Origin: a virus | Length of the DNA: 22,932 nucleotides | IMG/VR virus record: IMGVR_UViG_3300035670_001298 | Span: 1-22,932 of that record | Direction: 5' to 3' (one strand) | Part shown: piece by piece, positions 802 to 22,932 of the stretch | Numbering within the stretch: position 1 is the stretch's first letter | Layout: every line of letters starts with the position of its first letter | Notes under the pieces: generated by a model | The model's database searches: none | Told to the model about the DNA's origin: nothing | Seen by the model: the letters and a program-made list of their open reading frames with translations, nothing else | Translations under genes and position numbers: made by a program

Positions 802-2960
802 CGCTCGTCCCTGTTTTGACCGGCTGAACGTCCGACGACCACATTCGCTTGCGCCCGGCGCAGCGCGTTCGCCTGCGCGCGCAATTCCCGCTCTGCGGCG
901 CGCTGATTAAGGCGGCCGGCCTGTGACAGCGGCGTCGTGCCGAGCCGCGCGAGCGCCTCATTACGCTGCGGGTTGAGGATCCCAGGCTGACGCGCTGAAC
1001 GCGCCACGTTCGCGAGCACCCGCCGAAACGGCCCCTGCACGCCGCCGCTCTCGATGGACTGGATCGCAAAGTCGATGACGCCGTCCTCTTGGGTATTCTG
1101 CGCCACCGCCTCAGCGCGCTCCGCCGTCGCGCTGTTGCCGAACAGCCGATTGCGCCGATTGACCCCCTGCGCCTCGGTCAGGATGCGATTAATGATCCGA
1201 TTGCCGGGCGCCAAACGCGCCGCGCCAGTCTGTGCGTTGTCGGCAAAGGCATTGCGGATCGCATCCTGCACCGCGCGCGAGCGCATCACAGTCAACACCG
1301 TGCGGGTCTCGCCGCGCGCAAGCGCCGCGTCCAGGCCCTCCAAAATCCCGAGCGCCGAGGCGCGCATCTGCGCCGGCGTCCCCCCAAAGCCGGTCTCCAT
1401 TTGATGGCGAAACGCCGCCGCCCCCTGCGACGAGGGGTTTGTGATCGCCTGATAGGCCTGCCGCGCGATCTCAATCGCGCCGCTGTCGTCCAGGTATTGC
1501 TGCTGAGCGGCGCGATATAACGGGCTGATTTCGTCAGATCCCGCAATGGCCTGGATTTGACTGCGCAGCGCCATCGCGCCCGTGTTGTCCGCCCGGACGT
1601 CTTGGGCGATGTTGGCCAGCGCGCGCCCGTAATAATTTACCGTGCGCGTCGAGACATAGCCGTTCTGGCCGTCAATCATCGCGTTCAAGCCGTTCCCGAC
1701 CCGCAACACCTCCGCGAGCTCGGCTTCAACCTGCGCCAGCTCTTGCGGGCTTGAGGCGCGTTGCAGTCTGTTGCGCAGGTGGCGCACATCATACGCCGCT
1801 TGCTCCGCCGCGCCCCGCAGCGCGCGTTGCGCAAACGCCGTCTCCTGAGGCAGCAAGGGCAGCGCGTTATTGACCGGGCGCGCCATCATCGCATTGCGCA
1901 GGGTCGCCTGTTGCTGCGCGGTGAGCGGCTGCGCGTAGGCGCGATCATAGGCCTGCGTCGCCGCCGTATTGCGCTCGCCGGCGAGCCGTTGGGCAAGCGC
2001 TTGATAGCTGCTCGCCTGCTCGCCCGTCGCCTGCTGAGCCGCGCCCATCACCCGCCGGGTCAGTCCCTGACCCTGCTGCTCGGTCGCCTCCTGCAACACC
2101 GCGCGCCCAGGCCCTCCCACCGTGGCGATCGCTTGCATGCTCTGGTTGAGGCGAGGCAGGGCCTCAAACACCATCGTGTCATCCCCGCCCGGCGCCGCGC
2201 GCTGCAGGCGACGCGCAGCCGTCTCCATTTGGCGCGGCGTCACCCCCGTCGCCGGATTGACCCGCACCTCCCGCGTCCCGGCAAGGACAGGCGCCACCTC
2301 GCGCAGCGGATCCCGGCGCGCCTGGCGCATGGCGCGGGTGTAGGCGTCCAACGCATAATCATCCGCTGTGCGTGCGCGCCCCGCCGTCCCGCCCAAAAGC
2401 GCATGCGCCGCGCCGCCCACCGCGCCCCCGATCGCCGCGCCGGTCGCTCGCTCCTGGACATTCTCGCCGCCCGCCGCCCCCATCGACGCGGCCATCGTCA
2501 CGGGACGCGGCGCAGCGTTAAACGCCTGCATCGCCGTGCGCGGGCCTGTGATCGCCGCCGGCGCAGCGCGCAACGCGGCCGGGCCCGCCGAGCCTAAGCC
2601 GGCGACCAACTCGGTCCCGAGCGCTGCGATCGGCGCCTCGCGCCGAAACTGATTGACCAGCCCCTGCTCCTCAGCCCGGCCCTGCTGGTACCCCTGCGCC
2701 ATTGCCGGCAAAGGGTTGCGGCCCTGCACTGCGGCGCGGATCCCCTGTCCGACCGCCGTCCCAGCGCCCGCCGCCTCGTCGCTCAACCCGATCGTCACGC
2801 CGCGCCGCAACGCCGCCATCCCGCCCCGCAGCGGGGTGTACCCCTCCGGACGTTGCGCGCGCGCGAGCACCTGTCGGTTGTCCCGCAGGATCTCCTCGCG
2901 CGTGGTGCCGTTGGGATACTCTTTGACGGTCCCGTCCGGCATGACGACGCGGACGCTCAT
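798..2960 (-). CDS. Large ejection-type internal virion protein (720 aa)
   Basis: The ATG at 2960 overlaps the previous stop (ATGA, 2957-2960), and the gene ends in an ATGA overlap with the next one. The N-terminus (MSVRVVMPDGTVKEYPNGT) is a short beta-type segment followed by a helical region. Residues about 95-195 form a long Ala/Gly-rich stretch with repeated small residues (for example GAAIGGAVGGAAHALLGG), which could insert into or cross a membrane. The rest is Gln/Ala/Arg-rich helix with little hydrophobic core. This composition and position are typical of podovirus proteins packed in the capsid and ejected ahead of the DNA (P22 gp20/gp16 type). No lytic transglycosylase or peptidase motif was seen. 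The exact family is not recognised. Confidence 0.7.
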   Translation of the reverse strand: MSVRVVMPDGTVKEYPNGTTREEILRDNRQVLARAQRPEGYTPLRGGMAALRRGVTIGLSDEAAGAGTAVGQGIRAAVQGRNPLPAMAQGYQQGRAEEQGLVNQFRREAPIAALGTELVAGLGSAGPAALRAAPAAITGPRTAMQAFNAAPRPVTMAASMGAAGGENVQERATGAAIGGAVGGAAHALLGGTAGRARTADDYALDAYTRAMRQARRDPLREVAPVLAGTREVRVNPATGVTPRQMETAARRLQRAAPGGDDTMVFEALPRLNQSMQAIATVGGPGRAVLQEATEQQGQGLTRRVMGAAQQATGEQASSYQALAQRLAGERNTAATQAYDRAYAQPLTAQQQATLRNAMMARPVNNALPLLPQETAFAQRALRGAAEQAAYDVRHLRNRLQRASSPQELAQVEAELAEVLRVGNGLNAMIDGQNGYVSTRTVNYYGRALANIAQDVRADNTGAMALRSQIQAIAGSDEISPLYRAAQQQYLDDSGAIEIARQAYQAITNPSSQGAAAFRHQMETGFGGTPAQMRASALGILEGLDAALARGETRTVLTVMRSRAVQDAIRNAFADNAQTGAARLAPGNRIINRILTEAQGVNRRNRLFGNSATAERAEAVAQNTQEDGVIDFAIQSIESGGVQGPFRRVLANVARSARQPGILNPQRNEALARLGTTPLSQAGRLNQRAAERELRAQANALRRAQANVVVGRSAGQNRDER
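2501..2559. repeat. 59-bp direct repeat, internal copy
   Basis: This copy lies in frame within the 720-aa ejection protein and fits the surrounding coding sequence, so it is probably the original. The other copy is at 1-59. Confidence 0.9.
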
Positions 2961-4300
2961 CGCCCAATATCCAGAAGGTTGACTTCCGTATCCTTCAAGG
3001 GCTCGCGGTCCGGATACACAAGGCTCATAAGGCCGTCTTCGTCCATTGCGCCAACATCTGGGAATGGCTCAGGTTGCCCTGCCATGCGCGCAATGCCGTT
3101 TGCGTATTGCTGGCGCCGGCGCTGTTTCAGCCTTCTTTCAGCAGGGCTATCTTGTGGGGTCGGCAGCATTGCGCCGGCAATCACTTGCCGCTCTTCGGGG
3201 GTAATCGCGGCTCCACCGATCGCCGGAAGGCCCGACTCAATTGCCGCGTAAGCCCCATTGTACGTAATATAATCTTCCCCGCCGACAAATCTTGAGGCGG
3301 CCGTCATTTGGCCTGTTTCACCGTCAAGTTGACGGGCGATGAAGTCTTGGCTCAGGTCATAGCCGTCCCTTTCCATCCGCTCCATCAAGCGGACCCCCTC
3401 AATGACTTGCTGCAGCGACGCCTGTGCCCGCGCGCGCTGCTCAGGCCCGCCGAGCGTTGTGGAGGTCCCGCCGCCAAGTGTCGTGATTTGCCCCGTCGTT
3501 TCGTTGACTTGATAGGTCGATGACGGGTTGAGATTGCGCGCTTGCATCTCTTCAGCATTCAGAACGCGGAAGCGATCCCGCGGCGCAGGCGGCGCGCGAA
3601 ACCTTGCCTCAATGCCGGCCACACGCTCAACCTCTTCAAGCCTGCCGGGCAACAAAGCGCTTTGGCGTTGCCGCAACAGTTCGGTCTCAATCGGCCCCAC
3701 AAGACGCGCGCGAGCGGCCTCATTCTGGGCCTGCACCGGCCCGAGGGCCTGCTCCCGCGCAACCGCGTTCTGCGTCTGCACCGGCCCCAGACGGCCCTCA
3801 AGGGCAATCTGGTTGTCCATGGCCCGCCCCTCGCCGAGCACCTCGCCCCGCATCCGTGCGGCCGTTTCCGGGTCGCCTTGGCCGATCGTGCGAATGTACT
3901 CCTCGGTCGTGCCCGCCCGCGCCGCATCGCGCTGCGCGTTCTGCATGCGCATGCGCTCGTTCGCCCGATCCGTGCGGTCCTGCTCCTCGCCCATCTCCCG
4001 TGAGCGGTTGGCGCGCGCCATCTGCCCAATTGTCAGAGCCTTTGCGAGCCCGGCGAGCAGATTGCCCCTGGTATCAATGCCCTGCCCCTCGCGCAGCGCA
4101 TCCGCCAATGCGCGCGCCTGCGCCCCCTCAAAATCATTGACCCGCGCCTGCACCCCTTGGGGACGCTGCGCCGCCGCCAGCTGCATCCCCCTTGCGACCG
4201 GAGCGCGATCAATCAACCGCAACTCCTGCAACGGCTGAACCGGCACAATGGGCGATAACGGCGCAGGACGCCGTATCATTGGGACTGGACGAAGCGCCAT
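2957..4300 (-). CDS. Ejection-type internal virion protein (447 aa)
   Basis: ATG at 4300 follows the end of the 664-aa gene, with a GAGG ribosome site five bases upstream that lies inside that gene's last codons. The protein is predicted mostly helical and polar, rich in Ala, Arg, Gln and Glu, with a Pro-rich first 25 residues and no signal peptide or membrane segment. Residues 171-207 carry a short 15-residue tandem repeat. A glycine/threonine-rich loop (about TTLGGGTSTTLGG) divides the coiled N-terminal half from a more globular C-terminal half. It sits between two other large virion proteins in one coupled run, so an internal head or ejection role is likely. This is inference from position and composition. 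Confidence 0.65.
   Translation of the reverse strand: MALRPVPMIRRPAPLSPIVPVQPLQELRLIDRAPVARGMQLAAAQRPQGVQARVNDFEGAQARALADALREGQGIDTRGNLLAGLAKALTIGQMARANRSREMGEEQDRTDRANERMRMQNAQRDAARAGTTEEYIRTIGQGDPETAARMRGEVLGEGRAMDNQIALEGRLGPVQTQNAVAREQALGPVQAQNEAARARLVGPIETELLRQRQSALLPGRLEEVERVAGIEARFRAPPAPRDRFRVLNAEEMQARNLNPSSTYQVNETTGQITTLGGGTSTTLGGPEQRARAQASLQQVIEGVRLMERMERDGYDLSQDFIARQLDGETGQMTAASRFVGGEDYITYNGAYAAIESGLPAIGGAAITPEERQVIAGAMLPTPQDSPAERRLKQRRRQQYANGIARMAGQPEPFPDVGAMDEDGLMSLVYPDREPLKDTEVNLLDIGR
3680..3790 (-). repeat. 15-residue tandem repeat (2.5 copies)
   Basis: Residues 171-207 of the 447-aa protein read LGPVQTQNAVAREQA, then LGPVQAQNEAARARL, then VGPIETE. The period is 15 residues (45 bp). 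The helical register suggests a rod or coiled segment. Confidence 0.75.
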
Positions 4301-4301
4301 C

Positions 4302-6296
4302 TCAGCCTCCTCCTAAAAACCAGGGCCGCGCGCCGCCCATCATGCTCCCACCGATCGACCCGAGCGCGTTGACCAAGGCTGCACGCTGATCCATCTGCGC
4401 TTGGTAGGCCGCCTGCTGCGCCTGTTGATTAAGCTGATACGCGCCGAGCACGTTCGTCTGCCCCACGCTCGTCGCCGTGGGCGCAGCCGGGTTCAGCGGC
4501 GTGATCGGCGCGCCGCTCATGATCGACACAATCTCTTGCAAAGGGATCTGCCGCGCAGCCAAGTCGGCCGCGTAATTGCGCTGGTAATCGGCCTCCGCCT
4601 CGCCCAGGTTTTGCGTCCGCTGCGCCAAAATCTCAGCCAGCTGTCGCGAGCGATCCTGACTGGACATATCAAACGCCGACCGCAACCGGCCCAACGCGTC
4701 CGCGTTCTGCGCTTGCGCCAACTGCGACCCCAAGGCCGAGGCTTGCAAGCCTTGGTTGAAGCCCTGCCCGGCGCGCGCCAGCTGATCCGCATTCGCCTGC
4801 GACCGGAAATCAGCCGCCATGCCCATCCCTGCAAGGCTGTCGGCTCGCTGCTGACCCCGAAAGCCGGCCTCCAAGTTGAGACGCGCCAGCTGGTCCGCGT
4901 TCATCTGGCCGCGCATGTCCGCCGTCATGCCGGTCGCTGCCAAATCATCCGCACGCTGCTGGCCGCGCAGGCTCGCCTCAAGCCCTGTGCGAGACAGCTG
5001 ATCCGCGTTCATCTGGCCGCGGAAATCTGCCGCCATCCCGGCGCGCGCCAGCTGATCCGCGCTCATCGCCTGCGTCAGGCCTGCGCCCTGCGCCATCTCA
5101 CCCACATTTTGGCCCCGGACCGCCAACGCATTTGCCAGATCCGCTTGCCGCAACCCAAGCTGATCGGCCCGCTCGGCCTGCCGCAATCCCGCCATCTGGT
5201 TCAGCGCGCCGACTTGGTCCCCGTAACTCGCGCGCGCCTGATTAAAGCCCTGACCAAGCTCCCCCGCCGCTTGACCGCGCGCCATCATGCCGACCTGCTG
5301 GGCGTTCATCAGCGCGCTGGCGTAGGCGTTCGCGCGCCCCTCCTCGAAGGCTGAGCGCTCGGCGTTAAATGCGTCCGACCCGGCCGTTATGCCTTGATTG
5401 GCAAGCCGGGAGCGCAAATCCTCATCCGCGCGCGCAAAACTGCGGTCCATGCCCGCGGTTGCGCCCTCAAACGCCCGGCGCGTGATGTCGTCCCCGAAAT
5501 TGCCGAGCTGTTGGGTCGGATCGTAAGCGCCGGCATTCACCGCGCCGACCTGACCCGCATTGAACGCTTGCAGGTTTAAGGCGCCCGGATCCGTTTGGGT
5601 CGGATTGAACCGCCCTAGCTGCTGCGTCGGATCGTATTGCCCGAGCTGCATGCCCTGCGCGCGCGGATCCAGGTCGGACAGATTTAAGCCCTGCTCCCGC
5701 GGGTTTAAGTCTGAAAAGTCCAACCCGCGAGACCGAGGGTCCAAATCAGACAGCCCCAGCCCGCCAGCGCGGGGGTTTAAATCAGACAAGGAAAGGCCGT
5801 TCGCGCGCGGGTCCATGTCTGCAAAACTCAGACCGGCTTGACGCGTCGGATCATACTGCGCCGCTGTCCGCGTCGGATCGTATTGCCCCAGCTGCATCTG
5901 CGGCGCAGACCGAGGATCGAACTGCGAGGCGTCGTATGACCCCAGCGCCTGCGCAAGGTCGAGCCGCCCGCCTGTCGCCTGCTGACTGTCAAACCGACGC
6001 GGCGTAAACGCTTGGCCCAAAATGGACTGCACCGTGTCGATTTGCGACAGGCCTAAATCATTGAGCGCAATGCCGGTCTGCTCTTGCCCCTCGCGCAAAC
6101 GACGCTGGTTGTCGCTTTCCGTGACGGTCTGCGTCCACACGTCGCCGTCATTGCTGTAATTGACCGACCCGTAGGGCGTCTGCTGATTGACCCGGTTGAG
6201 CGTCGCCTCCAAGCGCGCGGTCTCCGCATTGGCGTCCGCTTGCGCTTGGCTCACCACCCGCGGATCAGGCGGCGTGGGCGGTCTTGGTTTGCTCAC
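4302..6296 (-). CDS. Repeat-rich internal virion / ejection-type protein (664 aa)
   Basis: GTG at 6296 is preceded by GGAG seven bases upstream; the gene overlaps the acetyltransferase gene by 32 bp. The start (PPTPPDPRVVSQAQADANAE, then NQQTPYGSVNYS) matches a family common beside podovirus ejection genes: a Pro/Asp opening, a TPxGS motif and a helical body. Residues 155-226 hold six 12-residue repeats of the form GLxLSDLDPRxx, flanked by LGQYDPTQQ-like units. Residues 413-510 hold five full 18-residue repeats and a partial sixth. The C-terminus ends in a small Gly-rich tail (PWFLGGG). Cys is absent, and it is rich in Gln, Ala, Asp and Arg. Its position after the nozzle-like gene suggests an internal or tail-lumen protein. 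I infer a structural role and see no enzyme motif. Confidence 0.7.
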   Translation of the reverse strand: MSKPRPPTPPDPRVVSQAQADANAETARLEATLNRVNQQTPYGSVNYSNDGDVWTQTVTESDNQRRLREGQEQTGIALNDLGLSQIDTVQSILGQAFTPRRFDSQQATGGRLDLAQALGSYDASQFDPRSAPQMQLGQYDPTRTAAQYDPTRQAGLSFADMDPRANGLSLSDLNPRAGGLGLSDLDPRSRGLDFSDLNPREQGLNLSDLDPRAQGMQLGQYDPTQQLGRFNPTQTDPGALNLQAFNAGQVGAVNAGAYDPTQQLGNFGDDITRRAFEGATAGMDRSFARADEDLRSRLANQGITAGSDAFNAERSAFEEGRANAYASALMNAQQVGMMARGQAAGELGQGFNQARASYGDQVGALNQMAGLRQAERADQLGLRQADLANALAVRGQNVGEMAQGAGLTQAMSADQLARAGMAADFRGQMNADQLSRTGLEASLRGQQRADDLAATGMTADMRGQMNADQLARLNLEAGFRGQQRADSLAGMGMAADFRSQANADQLARAGQGFNQGLQASALGSQLAQAQNADALGRLRSAFDMSSQDRSRQLAEILAQRTQNLGEAEADYQRNYAADLAARQIPLQEIVSIMSGAPITPLNPAAPTATSVGQTNVLGAYQLNQQAQQAAYQAQMDQRAALVNALGSIGGSMMGGARPWFLGGG
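4767..5060 (-). repeat. 18-residue (54-bp) tandem repeat with 36-residue superperiod
   Basis: Residues 413-510 of the 664-aa protein repeat exactly every 18 residues. Unit 1 is ADQLARAGMAADFRGQMN and unit 2 is ADQLSRTGLEASLRGQQR; three further units and a partial sixth follow. The unit ends alternate between QMN (units 1 and 3) and QQR (units 2 and 4), so the true period is 36 residues. No gaps are needed to align them. Confidence 0.9.
5619..5834 (-). repeat. 12-residue (36-bp) tandem repeat, six units
   Basis: Residues 155-226 of the 664-aa protein are six ungapped 12-residue units: GLSFADMDPRAN, GLSLSDLNPRAG, GLGLSDLDPRSR, GLDFSDLNPREQ, GLNLSDLDPRAQ and GMQLGQYDPTQQ. Gly at 1, a hydrophobic residue at 2 and 4, Asp/Asn at 8 and Pro at 9 are conserved. 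Related YDPT units flank the block on both sides. Confidence 0.9.
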
Positions 6297-20025: not shown

Positions 20026-20888
20026 TTTGCCTTGCTCCGATTGAGCGTCTGCATCAGGTCCCGCAGAACGCGCGCGCCCTCGGCCCGCTCCTCATCGGTC
20101 GGCTCTTCGGTCCGCGGCACGTAAAGCCTCCGCACCGGCGCCGGCTCGGCGTCCCCGTGCTCATCGTCCTGCGCGTAGCGCGCCCCCTCCAGGATCTCGA
20201 CGCCGCAGTCGTCCGCGATCTGACCGACGTCGCGCTGCAGCCGCTCAGCCATGAAGGCCGTTGTCAGCACCGCGCTCGCCGTAAACCGACAATTCCGGCG
20301 GTTGAGCCAGCTGTAGACGTACGCGTCGCCGCGCGCGGCGCGCACCCGCTCCACAAACCGCGCCGTCGCGCCGATCGGATACGGACCTGCGCCGTCGTCG
20401 CCTGGAGGGGCGGTAGACGCCGCGCGGCGCAAGGCCTCCACGCACGCCAGACGCGGCGCGTACAGTTCGCGGCAAGCGCTCATGAGCTCGTGAAGGGTCG
20501 GCCACCACTTGCCGCCAGCCGTGTCCGGCCAAGTCTGCACAACGTGCAGCGCAATGTCGGCCGGAAACCGCGACAGCGCCTCCGCATAGGCCCGCGTCGC
20601 CGCAATGATCACGCCGTGATCCGCATCGTCCTGGCGCACGGTCATCGCAGCCAGCACGCTCAACGCCTGCAAAATCGCTGAGACGTCAGCAGGCCGCGAG
20701 GCGCGGTCGTACCGCGCTAGCATCTCCTGGATCTCCGAACGGATCGGCGTCCCATGGATCGTCGCCCGCGGCCGCTCGTCGCTGCTCTGCGGCACGAGCA
20801 GCAACCGCCAGCTCCCGGATGATGCTTGCGCGAGAGCGTCGCTGGTTTGCTGCGGATGGCGGCGGGCTATAGGCGCGGGGCTGTTCAT
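20022..20888 (-). CDS. Replication partner protein, lambda P position (288 aa)
   Basis: The region EIQEMLARYDRASRPADVSA through RFPADIALHVVQTWPDTAGG and KWWPTLHELMSACREL has the helical pattern of phage helicase-loader-type proteins, where a W/F-P-T-L motif is common. The C-terminal half is polar, ending DLMQTLNRSKAK. Two starts are plausible. ATG 20888 has GGAG seven bases upstream but overlaps the O-like gene by 203 bp; ATG 20723 overlaps it by 38 bp. In the overlap this frame has about four-fifths G/C at third codon positions by hand count, against about three-fifths for the O-like frame, so I prefer the longer form. Its place after the initiator suggests that it loads the host helicase. 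Confidence 0.65.
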   Translation of the reverse strand: MNSPAPIARRHPQQTSDALAQASSGSWRLLLVPQSSDERPRATIHGTPIRSEIQEMLARYDRASRPADVSAILQALSVLAAMTVRQDDADHGVIIAATRAYAEALSRFPADIALHVVQTWPDTAGGKWWPTLHELMSACRELYAPRLACVEALRRAASTAPPGDDGAGPYPIGATARFVERVRAARGDAYVYSWLNRRNCRFTASAVLTTAFMAERLQRDVGQIADDCGVEILEGARYAQDDEHGDAEPAPVRRLYVPRTEEPTDEERAEGARVLRDLMQTLNRSKAK

Positions 20889-21582
20889 AGGTCATCTCCG
20901 GATTGCCGGCGAGGCGGCGGGTGCGGATGGCAAGGGCGGCCTCGCGGACCCAGGTCCAGGACCGGATCAGCTTGCCGCGGGCGCGGCAGGAGGCGGCGGT
21001 GGCGTCAATCGCCGGGAGGACGTCGTCGTCCCAGTCGCAGGGATCCCCCCGCGTCGGCTCACACAGGGCCTTGAGGTCAGCGTAGTGGTGCACCGAGCCC
21101 TGCGTGCGATCGAGGGCGTCCCCCGCCCTCGCCTGCGCCTGTCGCAGACGCTCCGGCCAAACGTCGAAGGTCGGACCCTCGCGCGCGCACGCAAGAGCAT
21201 CATCATCAGATGATGGTTCTAATATTCCTGGTTCAGCGCGCTCAATTTGAACGCTGGTTAGATGCGTATTTGACCGCTGGTCAAATTGACCACTGGTCAA
21301 ATTGAGCGCTGGTTCGCTGACCGCAAGCGTCATCAAATACGAGCCAAGCGTGCCGTCTGGGCGGCGGCGTCGCTCCCGCTTCAAAAGCCCAAGCTTTTCC
21401 ATCTCAACGATGGCGCGCCGGACCGTGGACACAGAGCACTCGGCCTCCTCGGCGACGCGCTCAAAAGCCGGCCAGCAGTCGTGACTTTGGTTAGCGTAAT
21501 TCGCCAACACCAGCAGGACGGCTTTATTGGTCGCGCTGCCAGCCTTTACGCTCAAGGCCCAACTGATCGCTTGCACGCTCAT
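20686..21582 (-). CDS. O-like replication initiator with winged helix (298 aa)
   Basis: ATG at 21582 overlaps the previous stop (ATGA), with GGAGG eight bases upstream. Residues 1-90 form a winged helix (ISWALSVKAGSATNKAVLLV, CWPAFERVAEEAECSVSTVR, RAIVEMEKLGLLKRERRRR), the fold used by lambda O and related phage initiators to bind iterons. A linker follows (about 90-130), and its DNA carries four iteron-like repeats. The C-terminal domain (FDVWPERLRQAQARAGDAL, later WDDDVLPAIDATAASCRARG, then SWTWVREAALAIRTRRLAGN) is helical, with an acidic tail likely to contact the next protein. The protein should open the phage origin and recruit the helicase machinery. Confidence 0.78.
   Translation of the reverse strand: MSVQAISWALSVKAGSATNKAVLLVLANYANQSHDCWPAFERVAEEAECSVSTVRRAIVEMEKLGLLKRERRRRPDGTLGSYLMTLAVSEPALNLTSGQFDQRSNTHLTSVQIERAEPGILEPSSDDDALACAREGPTFDVWPERLRQAQARAGDALDRTQGSVHHYADLKALCEPTRGDPCDWDDDVLPAIDATAASCRARGKLIRSWTWVREAALAIRTRRLAGNPEMTYEQPRAYSPPPSAANQRRSRASIIRELAVAARAAEQRRAAAGDDPWDADPFGDPGDASAVRPRLAAC
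21245..21315. other. Iteron cluster, probable phage replication origin
   Basis: Four 16-base repeats share the core TTGAnCnCTGGT: 21245-21260, 21268-21283, 21284-21299 and 21300-21315. The last three are directly abutted (16-bp period), and the first is 7 bp further away. The two central units are inverted repeats (TTTGACC/GGTCAAA and TTGACC/GGTCAA). A less GC-rich stretch with the perfect palindrome CATCATC-A-GATGATG (21201-21215) lies to the left. The cluster is inside the linker of the O-like gene, just as the lambda origin lies in O. Confidence 0.75.
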
Positions 21583-21809
21583 CTAAGTCGCCTCCACCGC
21601 AGCCAAGCCGGCCGCGGCTGTTGAACGGGGTTGAAAGGAAGTTTCCGCTCAGCCAACGGAGGGGGGGGAGGCGCGCGCCACGGGCGGCCGCGCGACCGGT
21701 ACAGCAGCCCGGCGACAGCGCTGCGCGTTACGCCAAGCAACCGGGCAATCGCGCGATAGCTCAGCCCGGCCGCGTACAGCTCCTGCACAAGCATTTGGCG
21801 CGGGCTCAT
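21579..21809 (-). CDS. Small GcrA-like helix-turn-helix protein (76 aa)
   Basis: ATG at 21809 overlaps the Cro-like stop (ATGA). Residues 4-40 (RQMLVQELYAAGLSYRAIAR, then LLGVTRSAVAGLLYRSRGR) form a helix-turn-helix resembling the DNA-binding end of GcrA, the alphaproteobacterial cell-cycle regulator (pattern GLSxxxIAxxLG-VTRxAVxGxxxR). A Pro/Arg-rich tail follows, with no GcrA sigma-binding domain. A run of eight C codes for PPPPP and is a likely spot for sequencing error or frame slippage. It occupies the place of lambda cII. It could equally be a generic sigma-region-4 or resolvase-type HTH. An early regulator is likely. Confidence 0.65.
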   Translation of the reverse strand: MSPRQMLVQELYAAGLSYRAIARLLGVTRSAVAGLLYRSRGRPWRAPPPPPLAERKLPFNPVQQPRPAWLRWRRLR

Positions 21810-22030
21810 GCGGCAGCCGCGTTCTTGTTTTGGCCCAAATTATGCAGGGCCTCGTAAGTTATACCGCTAATGCCAAAACGGCGCGCGGACTGAACAAGGC
21901 TCGCAAAATGCTCAGCCGGGATCTTGCCGCGGTGCTTCCACATGCGGATCGCCGCGGCGTCTATGCCCGTGTCCCGCGCCAACCGCGCGGTCGAAGGCCA
22001 TAGCTCAAGAAGGTCTTTTACCGAGGTCAT
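21806..22030 (-). CDS. Cro-like repressor (74 aa)
   Basis: The likely start is ATG 22030. The longer frame upstream would run through the operator and promoter. The helix-turn-helix is at residues about 12-42 (STARLARDTGIDAAAIRMWK, then HRGKIPAEHFASLVQSA), followed by RRFGISGITYEALHNLG. This pattern is common in Cro-type proteins of alphaproteobacterial prophages. It is divergent from the CI-like gene and first in the leftward early operon. The predicted transcription start falls on or near the ATG, so its mRNA may be leaderless. It should bind the same operators as the repressor and turn early transcription down. Confidence 0.78.
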   Translation of the reverse strand: MTSVKDLLELWPSTARLARDTGIDAAAIRMWKHRGKIPAEHFASLVQSARRFGISGITYEALHNLGQNKNAAAA

Positions 22031-22035
22031 GTCAT

Positions 22036-22056
22036 CTTGTAACCCAGAGTTACAAG
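22036..22056. promoter_or_regulatory. Repressor operator O1 (left, strong)
   Basis: A perfect 8-base inverted repeat, CTTGTAAC and GTTACAAG, around a 5-base centre CCAGA. It matches the operator at 22735-22755 at 19 of 21 positions and overlaps the leftward promoter. Confidence 0.8.
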
Positions 22057-22065
22057 TAAGCGCAA
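22037..22065 (-). promoter_or_regulatory. Leftward early promoter (PR-equivalent)
   Basis: Reading leftward, TTGCGC (22060-22065) and TTACAA (22037-22042) are separated by 17 bases. The operator at 22036-22056 covers the -10 element and most of the spacer. The predicted start is about 22030, the first base of the Cro-like ATG. Confidence 0.6.
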
Positions 22066-22081
22066 GCCCCAGAGTTACATT
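22061..22081. promoter_or_regulatory. Repressor half-operator O2 (left, weak)
   Basis: Only the right half (CCAGA then GTTACAT) is conserved; the left half is degenerate. Its centre is 25 bp from the centre of O1. It may allow cooperative binding and control the repressor gene. Confidence 0.5.
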
Positions 22082-22121
22082 TTTTTCGGTACCCTGCCCG
22101 CGTAACTGAAAGACGATTCTT

Positions 22122-22700
22122 ATGATGCACGATCGATTGCGGCGCGCCCGTATCCAAGCCGGGTACAAGAGCGCGCAGGCGTTTTGTGACGCCGCAGGCT
22201 TAGAAGGCTTTGTCTATCGCTCGCACGAGTCTGGGCGCCGCGCTTTCGACCCTGAGCAAGCGGCCGCCTACGCAAAAAAATTAAAGGTCCCCCCGGAATG
22301 GTTGCTTTATGCGCGCTCCGCCCCACAATGGGCCTATGTGCCTGTGGTGGGCTATGTAGGTGCGGGGGCGCAAGTGTATCCACTAGCAACAGACGAGCAT
22401 ATTGACTCGATTGAACCTCCTCCAGGCTGTCCTGAGGGAGCCTTTGCGCTCGTTATACGCGGCGACAGCATGTATCCGTCGCTCTCAGACGGAGATATGC
22501 TGGTGTGTGTTCACTACCCCGCTGAACACTTGTTGGGCAAAAGAGCTGTTGTCGACCTGTCCACAGGCGAGCGGCTGGTTAAACGGATTAGCCCAGGCGC
22601 CCGGCCAAACACCTACACCCTCCTCAGCGACAACGCGCCGCCAATCCCAGACGTGACCATCACGGCAAGTGCGCGGATCCTATGGATCGCGCCCGCATAA
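22122..22700 (+). CDS. CI-like self-cleaving repressor (192 aa)
   Basis: The N-terminal helix-turn-helix domain spans residues 1-65 (MHDRLRRARIQAGYKSAQAF, then YRSHESGRRAFDPEQAAAYA). The LexA/S24 peptidase domain starts at about 72. Its expected cleavage site is Ala81-Gly82 (YVGAGAQVYP), with catalytic Ser116 (RGDSMYP) and Lys154 (RLVKRIS). DNA damage would thus trigger RecA-assisted self-cleavage and induction. Two ATG codons (22122, 22125) are adjacent; the ribosome site is weak (GAAAG). It lies between two sets of operators and reads toward the ERF gene, as lambda cI reads toward PL. Its own promoter is not clear by eye. Confidence 0.92.
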   Translation: MMHDRLRRARIQAGYKSAQAFCDAAGLEGFVYRSHESGRRAFDPEQAAAYAKKLKVPPEWLLYARSAPQWAYVPVVGYVGAGAQVYPLATDEHIDSIEPPPGCPEGAFALVIRGDSMYPSLSDGDMLVCVHYPAEHLLGKRAVVDLSTGERLVKRISPGARPNTYTLLSDNAPPIPDVTITASARILWIAPA

Positions 22701-22701
22701 A

Positions 22702-22722
22702 AATGTAACTCTGCGCAACAAA
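22702..22722. promoter_or_regulatory. Repressor operator O3 (right, weak)
   Basis: Begins two bases after the repressor stop. The left half AATGTAAC matches 6 of 8 positions, and the right half GCAACAAA 5 of 8. The stretch ATGTAACTCTG is the exact reverse complement of the conserved part of O2. Its centre is 33 bp from O4. Confidence 0.55.
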
Positions 22723-22726
22723 CCGC

Positions 22727-22754
22727 TTGACCGGCTCGTAACCCAGGGTTACAA
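22727..22754 (+). promoter_or_regulatory. Rightward early promoter (PL-equivalent)
   Basis: TTGACC (22727-22732) and TTACAA (22749-22754) are separated by 16 bases. The operator at 22735-22755 covers the -10 element and spacer, in the same register as in the leftward promoter. The predicted start is near 22761, leaving a leader of about 20 bases with GGAGG at 22771-22775. Confidence 0.65.
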
Positions 22755-22755
22755 G
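22735..22755. promoter_or_regulatory. Repressor operator O4 (right, strong)
   Basis: An inverted repeat of CTCGTAAC and GTTACAAG around CCAGG, with one mismatch between the arms. It differs from O1 at only two of 21 bases and overlaps the rightward promoter. Confidence 0.8.
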
Positions 22756-22780
22756 GGATCCACCCACACGGGAGGACCCC

Positions 22781-22932
22781 TTGACCAGACCCGCTCTCGC
22801 CACCGTCCTATTGCCGCCCGCGGCCGGCCTGTATCAAGCGCTCGCGGCCGCCCAAGCCGCCATCGGCCGCCTTGGCAAATCTAAGCAAGGCGCGCGCAGC
22901 AAATACGCGCCGCTCGACGTCGTAATTGACGC
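22781..22932 (+). CDS. erf: ERF-type single-strand annealing recombinase, 5' part only
   Basis: TTG at 22781 is chosen because GGAGG ends five bases upstream and the frame is open to the window edge (50 codons). After a short leader peptide the sequence reads LYQALAAAQAAIGRLGKSKQ, then GARSKYAPLDVVID. This is the opening of the ERF superfamily (helix with AxAQxxIG, then the SKYAPLDxV turn). ERF proteins anneal single strands and circularise phage DNA after injection. In P22 erf is in the PL operon, and here too it is the first gene of the rightward early unit. The C-terminal part is outside the window. Confidence 0.8.
   Translation, partial: MTRPALATVLLPPAAGLYQALAAAQAAIGRLGKSKQGARSKYAPLDVVID

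Follow-up and report, generated by a model that had tools for sequence, protein, structure and literature searches.

The right end of an IMG/VR viral record (IMGVR_UViG_3300035670_001298; 22,932 bases in length, probably a fragment given its classification as linear) very probably carries a temperate-phage immunity region that follows the lambda-type OL–cI–OR plan, has a LexA/S24 repressor and lacks rex genes. We refer to this whole 22,932-base stretch as the window. A cro-like gene (minus strand) and a cI-like gene (plus strand) diverge near its right end, followed by an ERF-like gene that starts at 22781. Operators lie between the divergent cI and cro, related operators recur beyond cI, at the other early promoter (19/21 identity between the main sites, O4 and O1), and the repressor joins a helix–turn–helix (HTH) to an S24 domain of the self-cleaving type (PF00717, with its catalytic dyad; cleavage predicted). 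The lambda-type reading is favored because paired operators occur both beside divergent cI/cro and upstream of the left operon, and do so in several relatives whose operator sequences are unrelated. Lambda has three operators on each side, whereas the window has two, and among its four sites O2 is a half-site and O3 is degenerate; we do not treat operator number as essential to the type, since it varies among lambda relatives such as N15 and phiKO2. The first-pass annotation had proposed a lambda switch of about 720 bp with a LexA-type repressor and no rex genes; its span and coordinates (22036–22755) are correct, and the same geometry in relatives supports the reading. The region adds a member to a known lambda-type design and is not a new kind of switch, extending the OL/OR design to a poorly studied phage group, probably of alphaproteobacteria.

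Operators and putative early promoters flanking cI

On the cro side, the main operator (OR), O1, occupies 22036–22056 (centre 22046; CTTGTAACCCAGAGTTACAAG) and overlaps the −10 element of the putative cro promoter. Its counterpart on the ERF side (OL), O4, occupies 22735–22755 (centre 22745; CTCGTAACCCAGGGTTACAAG) and overlaps the −10 of the putative left early promoter. Both are 21 bp long and 9/10 palindromic, and they are identical at 19 of 21 bases, confirming the two-base difference reported at first pass. In 300 dinucleotide shuffles of the region, two similar 21-bp palindromes never arose, and none of 100 reached the observed score when the O1/O4 pair was tested against shuffled flanks. 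A scan of all 22,932 bases found no place other than O1 and O4 within six mismatches of the symmetric consensus, showing that the motif is not common elsewhere in these 22.9 kb; seven mismatches were reached at three places, O3 included.

The putative cro promoter (PR-like; 22065–22037, minus strand) consists of TTGCGC (22065–22060), a 17-base spacer and TTACAA (22042–22037), and the putative left early promoter (PL-like; 22727–22754, plus strand) of TTGACC (22727–22732), a 16-base spacer and TTACAA (22749–22754), a layout that agrees with the original description of a TTG-type −35, a 16–17-base spacer and a TTACAA −10. Both match the consensus only weakly, and scanning with the E. coli sigma-70 consensus returned no promoter; the assignments come from comparative geometry, as the same layout is seen in relatives. 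The inverted repeat had been described as filling the spacer, which it does, but it also spans the whole −10, because the candidate outer half-sites of both O1 and O4 contain the TTACAA hexamer. A search for a cI promoter (PRM) gave no convincing candidate.

Each main operator has a candidate partner on the repressor side, as had been claimed. O2 (22061–22081, centre 22071; cro side) is a half-site together with a T-tract, with a good half, AGAGTTACA, at 22071–22079 and a left half that agrees only at CCC. O3 (22702–22722, centre 22712; ERF side) has a degenerate second half and seven mismatches to the symmetric consensus, a score equalled at two unrelated positions of the record; on the whole-record scan, O3 alone is indistinguishable from chance. 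The two do share an exact 15-nt inverted repeat (CAGAGTTACATTTTT at 22070–22084 and AAAAATGTAACTCTG at 22699–22713), so the further claim that their conserved parts are exact reverse complements holds. The two modules are near mirrors across cI and not exact ones, as O1 and O2 are spaced by 25 bp and O3 and O4 by 33 bp, a difference of 8 bp. A lone GTAAC half-site at 22102–22106, between O2 and the cI start, has an unmatched second half and may be due to chance.

The repressor, the Cro-like protein and the predicted switch

The CI-like repressor (22122–22700, plus strand; 192 aa) carries an HTH and an S24 peptidase domain (PF00717, E = 6.1e-12; phrog_4 repressor, E = 1.5e-23). Its Ser116/Lys154 dyad is invariant in an alignment of seven homologues, and VGAGA in its sequence points to a possible cleavage site at Ala81–Gly82, so that CI has both the Ser–Lys dyad and the Ala–Gly scissile bond of the LexA/S24 type and cleavage is predicted. 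A profile of the seven-member CI family matched the lambda repressor (3bdn) and LexA structures, whereas phmmer with CI alone found no match in the PDB. An IMG/VR search with the CI protein returned no close relative; aligned relatives are 28–41% identical and come from phages of Ruegeria, Rhizobium, Caulobacter and Mesorhizobium, a Microcystis phage and an unassigned spring phage. Together with prophage relatives, this repressor is the basis for considering the phage temperate. No integrase was identified among the proteins scanned from the incomplete record.

The divergent gene (21806–22030, minus strand, ATG at 22030) encodes a 74-aa Cro-like HTH protein that is weakly YdaS-like (PF15943, E = 1.7e-4 and 21.7 bits, below the curated cutoff of 30); its PDB match, to a Cro protein (3bd1), is also weak (E = 0.035). 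Homologues of it are divergent from cI in seven relatives. On the other side of the repressor, the gene for an ERF-type single-strand annealing protein (22781–22932, plus strand; phrog_155, E = 1.9e-4) begins with TTG, is preceded by a Shine–Dalgarno sequence, GGGAGG, at 22770–22775 (anti-Shine–Dalgarno energy −10.0 kcal/mol) and runs off the contig.

In the switch that we propose, CI dimers would occupy the full sites O1 and O4 and cover their −10 elements, turning both early promoters off, and the weaker O2 and O3 would probably be filled cooperatively. The small YdaS-like Cro probably competes with CI for the same sites. After DNA damage, RecA-stimulated self-cleavage of CI at Ala81–Gly82 would release both promoters together.

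Transcription from the putative cro promoter would be expected to start at about the position of the cro ATG (22030). In 10/10 cro genes (those of the window, L057, L083–L089 and L091; −10 assigned by eye) the ATG falls 5–9 nt past the putative −10, and upstream pairing with the anti-Shine–Dalgarno sequence in these ten ranges from +0.4 to −5.5 kcal/mol, being weaker than −4 in eight, compared with −5.8 to −10.0 kcal/mol for six left-operon genes. The short distance from the putative −10 and the slight Shine–Dalgarno signal together suggest leaderless cro mRNAs across the group, and the window's cro is probably leaderless as well. Leaderless cro and cI mRNAs have been mapped by RACE in PY54 (PMC4488713). 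The cI start in the window likewise has no Shine–Dalgarno sequence.

Paired operators in related phages

Terminase relatives of up to 68–71% identity were found among IMG/VR contigs and among genomes or metagenome-assembled genomes (MAGs) of Ancylobacter and Sphingopyxis, with further relatives at 57–60% in Caulobacteraceae MAGs. The major capsid protein shares 57% identity with its counterpart in the Bradyrhizobium phage ppBjS10J-1 (L089). Given these relatives, the host is probably an alphaproteobacterium. We tested for a palindrome in the cro–cI interval that is repeated downstream of cI, using shuffled flanks as the control. Paired palindromes were present in the Rhizobium phage RHph_I3_18 (16/17 identical, 0/100 shuffles), the Caulobacter phage DMCA (17/17 identical, 0/100), ppBjS10J-1 (0/100), a Sphingopyxis MAG contig (1/100) and the spring-water phage ctOK67 (2/100). 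Prophage L057, a terminase relative with a cI-like gene, has clustered CGTAC/GTACG sites on both sides of the gene in the cI position by inspection, but no significant pair in the automated test, in which its left sites fell under the palindrome cutoff. The test was also not significant for L083, L084 and L088, or for four further terminase relatives with a cI-like gene (L003, L008, L009 and L053) in which the OL side comprises only 0.2–1.3 kb.

Wherever sites are visible in relatives, the outward promoters have a TTGAC- or TTGC-type −35 and, after it, a palindrome containing or adjoining the −10, as in L057 (cro side CTTGACCGCATCTCGTACAAAAGGTACGAAT, left side CTTGACCATCATTCGTACATTTCGTACTG) and L086 (cro side TTGACAGCGTATCGCTACAAATGTAGCG, left side TTGACTTCGTAGCGATACAGTTGTAGCG). 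A second site on each side is common, at 25–26 bp in L086, L087 and the left side of L057 and at other spacings elsewhere. Each phage has its own operator sequence, common to its two sides, as co-evolution of operators with each phage's own repressor would predict. Since the layout is kept while the operators change in step, the group constitutes a natural data set for matching CI recognition helices to operators.

In two relatives the repressor-position gene is apparently HTH-only: the L057 record (gene at 2597–3100) has no S24 match, and the L089 gene (33968–34282) encodes about 105 aa and carries an HTH annotation. The paired-operator layout is kept in both. One other contig matched the operator pattern: L002, an unrelated 48-kb viral contig with a local array of similar palindromes; positions 2750–2880 of that contig hold several diverged palindromes of the TTCGTAACTCTGAGTTACGAA type with AT-rich spacers between them.

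OL–OR distance, looping and known switches

The main sites of the window are 699 bp apart. Corresponding distances are about 500 bp in ppBjS10J-1 (33881 to 34382; 435 bp for its closest-matching pair), 850–880 bp in the Sphingopyxis contig, 1.5 kb in L057, 1.7–1.8 kb in ctOK67 and RHph_I3_18 and 2.3 kb in DMCA. The earlier description of the switch as very compact is therefore apt as regards its short span, but the window is not the extreme, as ppBjS10J-1 is tighter. In lambda, OL and OR are 2.3 kb apart and are looped by CI oligomers (PMC3708714), and the range of about 0.5–2.3 kb in this group offers a natural series for testing the need for looping.

An OL–OR loop is possible in the window, and we regard it as a serious but less than even prospect that the same switch works mainly in this way, with a CI tetramer or octamer bridging O1/O2 and O3/O4 over about 0.7 kb and giving strong repression despite poor inner sites. 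Two operator clusters flanking cI at 699 bp, the analogous loops of lambda CI (PMC3708714) and the octamerization of the PaaR2 repressor of CP-933P (PMC8630535) are consistent with bridging. However, nothing points to this CI forming more than a dimer, and the distances in relatives show no visible constraint. Pairing alone is uninformative on looping, because two early operons require two operators regardless. A minimal form, in which one full operator per side and an OL–OR bridge of ~0.7 kb, and not cooperativity between adjacent sites, supply the nonlinearity, with a leaderless cro and the whole design conserved across an alphaproteobacterial phage group with diverged operators, appears unlikely to us.

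A precedent for near-identical early promoters exists in CP-933P, a cryptic prophage of E. coli O157:H7 in which the PL −35 and −10 are identical to those of PR, the operators are similar and YdaS serves as Cro (PMC8630535); the combination of duplicated PR/PL promoters and a YdaS-type Cro has thus already been published. Some CP-933P palindromes have one poor half-site (PMC8630535), as do O2 and O3, whereas CP-933P has more operators per side, a toxin–antitoxin pair in the repressor operon and different operator sequences. Both proteins of CP-933P use overlapping sites (PMC8630535) and the Cro-like gene of the window adjoins O1, raising the idea that the palindromes serve chiefly as binding sites for the Cro-like protein and that CI binds elsewhere. 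We consider this improbable, as no alternative repeated CI site lies around the two promoters, and in lambdoid phages CI and Cro usually act on the same operators. Least credible of all is that O1 and O4 resemble each other through similar or duplicated promoters and not as repressor sites. Selection on the promoter does account for some of the resemblance, since the putative −10 coincides with the outer half-site, but the inner half is also symmetric (9/10 palindromic), and relatives have similar promoter spacing while their palindromes change together on the two sides, as co-evolution with the repressor would predict.

Read as a lambda-type switch, the window resembles lambda in that cI and cro diverge from an intervening set of operators, more operators cluster at the left early promoter, the repressor is autocleavable (predicted here) and the left operon carries recombination genes. 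It differs in its OL–OR distance (699 bp versus 2.3 kb; PMC3708714), the absence of rex genes, two sites per side (one a half-site) instead of three, an unrelated operator sequence, a YdaS-like Cro and an apparently leaderless cro. N15 and phiKO2 have two OL sites (PMC4488713), but in the immB regions of N15, phiKO2 and PY54, telomere phages with plasmid prophages, the left sites lie upstream of repA, and PY54 has a single recognized operator. The rhizobial phage 16-3 has a C repressor that acts on both PL and PR (PMC3694467); by description it resembles the window as an alphaproteobacterial phage with one repressor for both promoters. ppBjS10J-1 has the same terminase–cro–cI–ERF order with paired operators on both sides and differs in its short HTH repressor gene, its operator (CCTACC-N5-GGTAGG) and its shorter OL–OR distance.

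Two further repeats occur in the record. Four iteron-like repeats of the TTGACCGCTGGTCAAA type, 16–23 bp apart, lie at 21242–21319 inside an O-like replication initiator gene (20686–21582, minus strand), resembling a lambda-type origin within O. Imperfect tandem repeats of 54 bp occupy 4882–5067 in a virion structural protein gene (4302–6296, minus strand), the protein sequence of which is repetitive.
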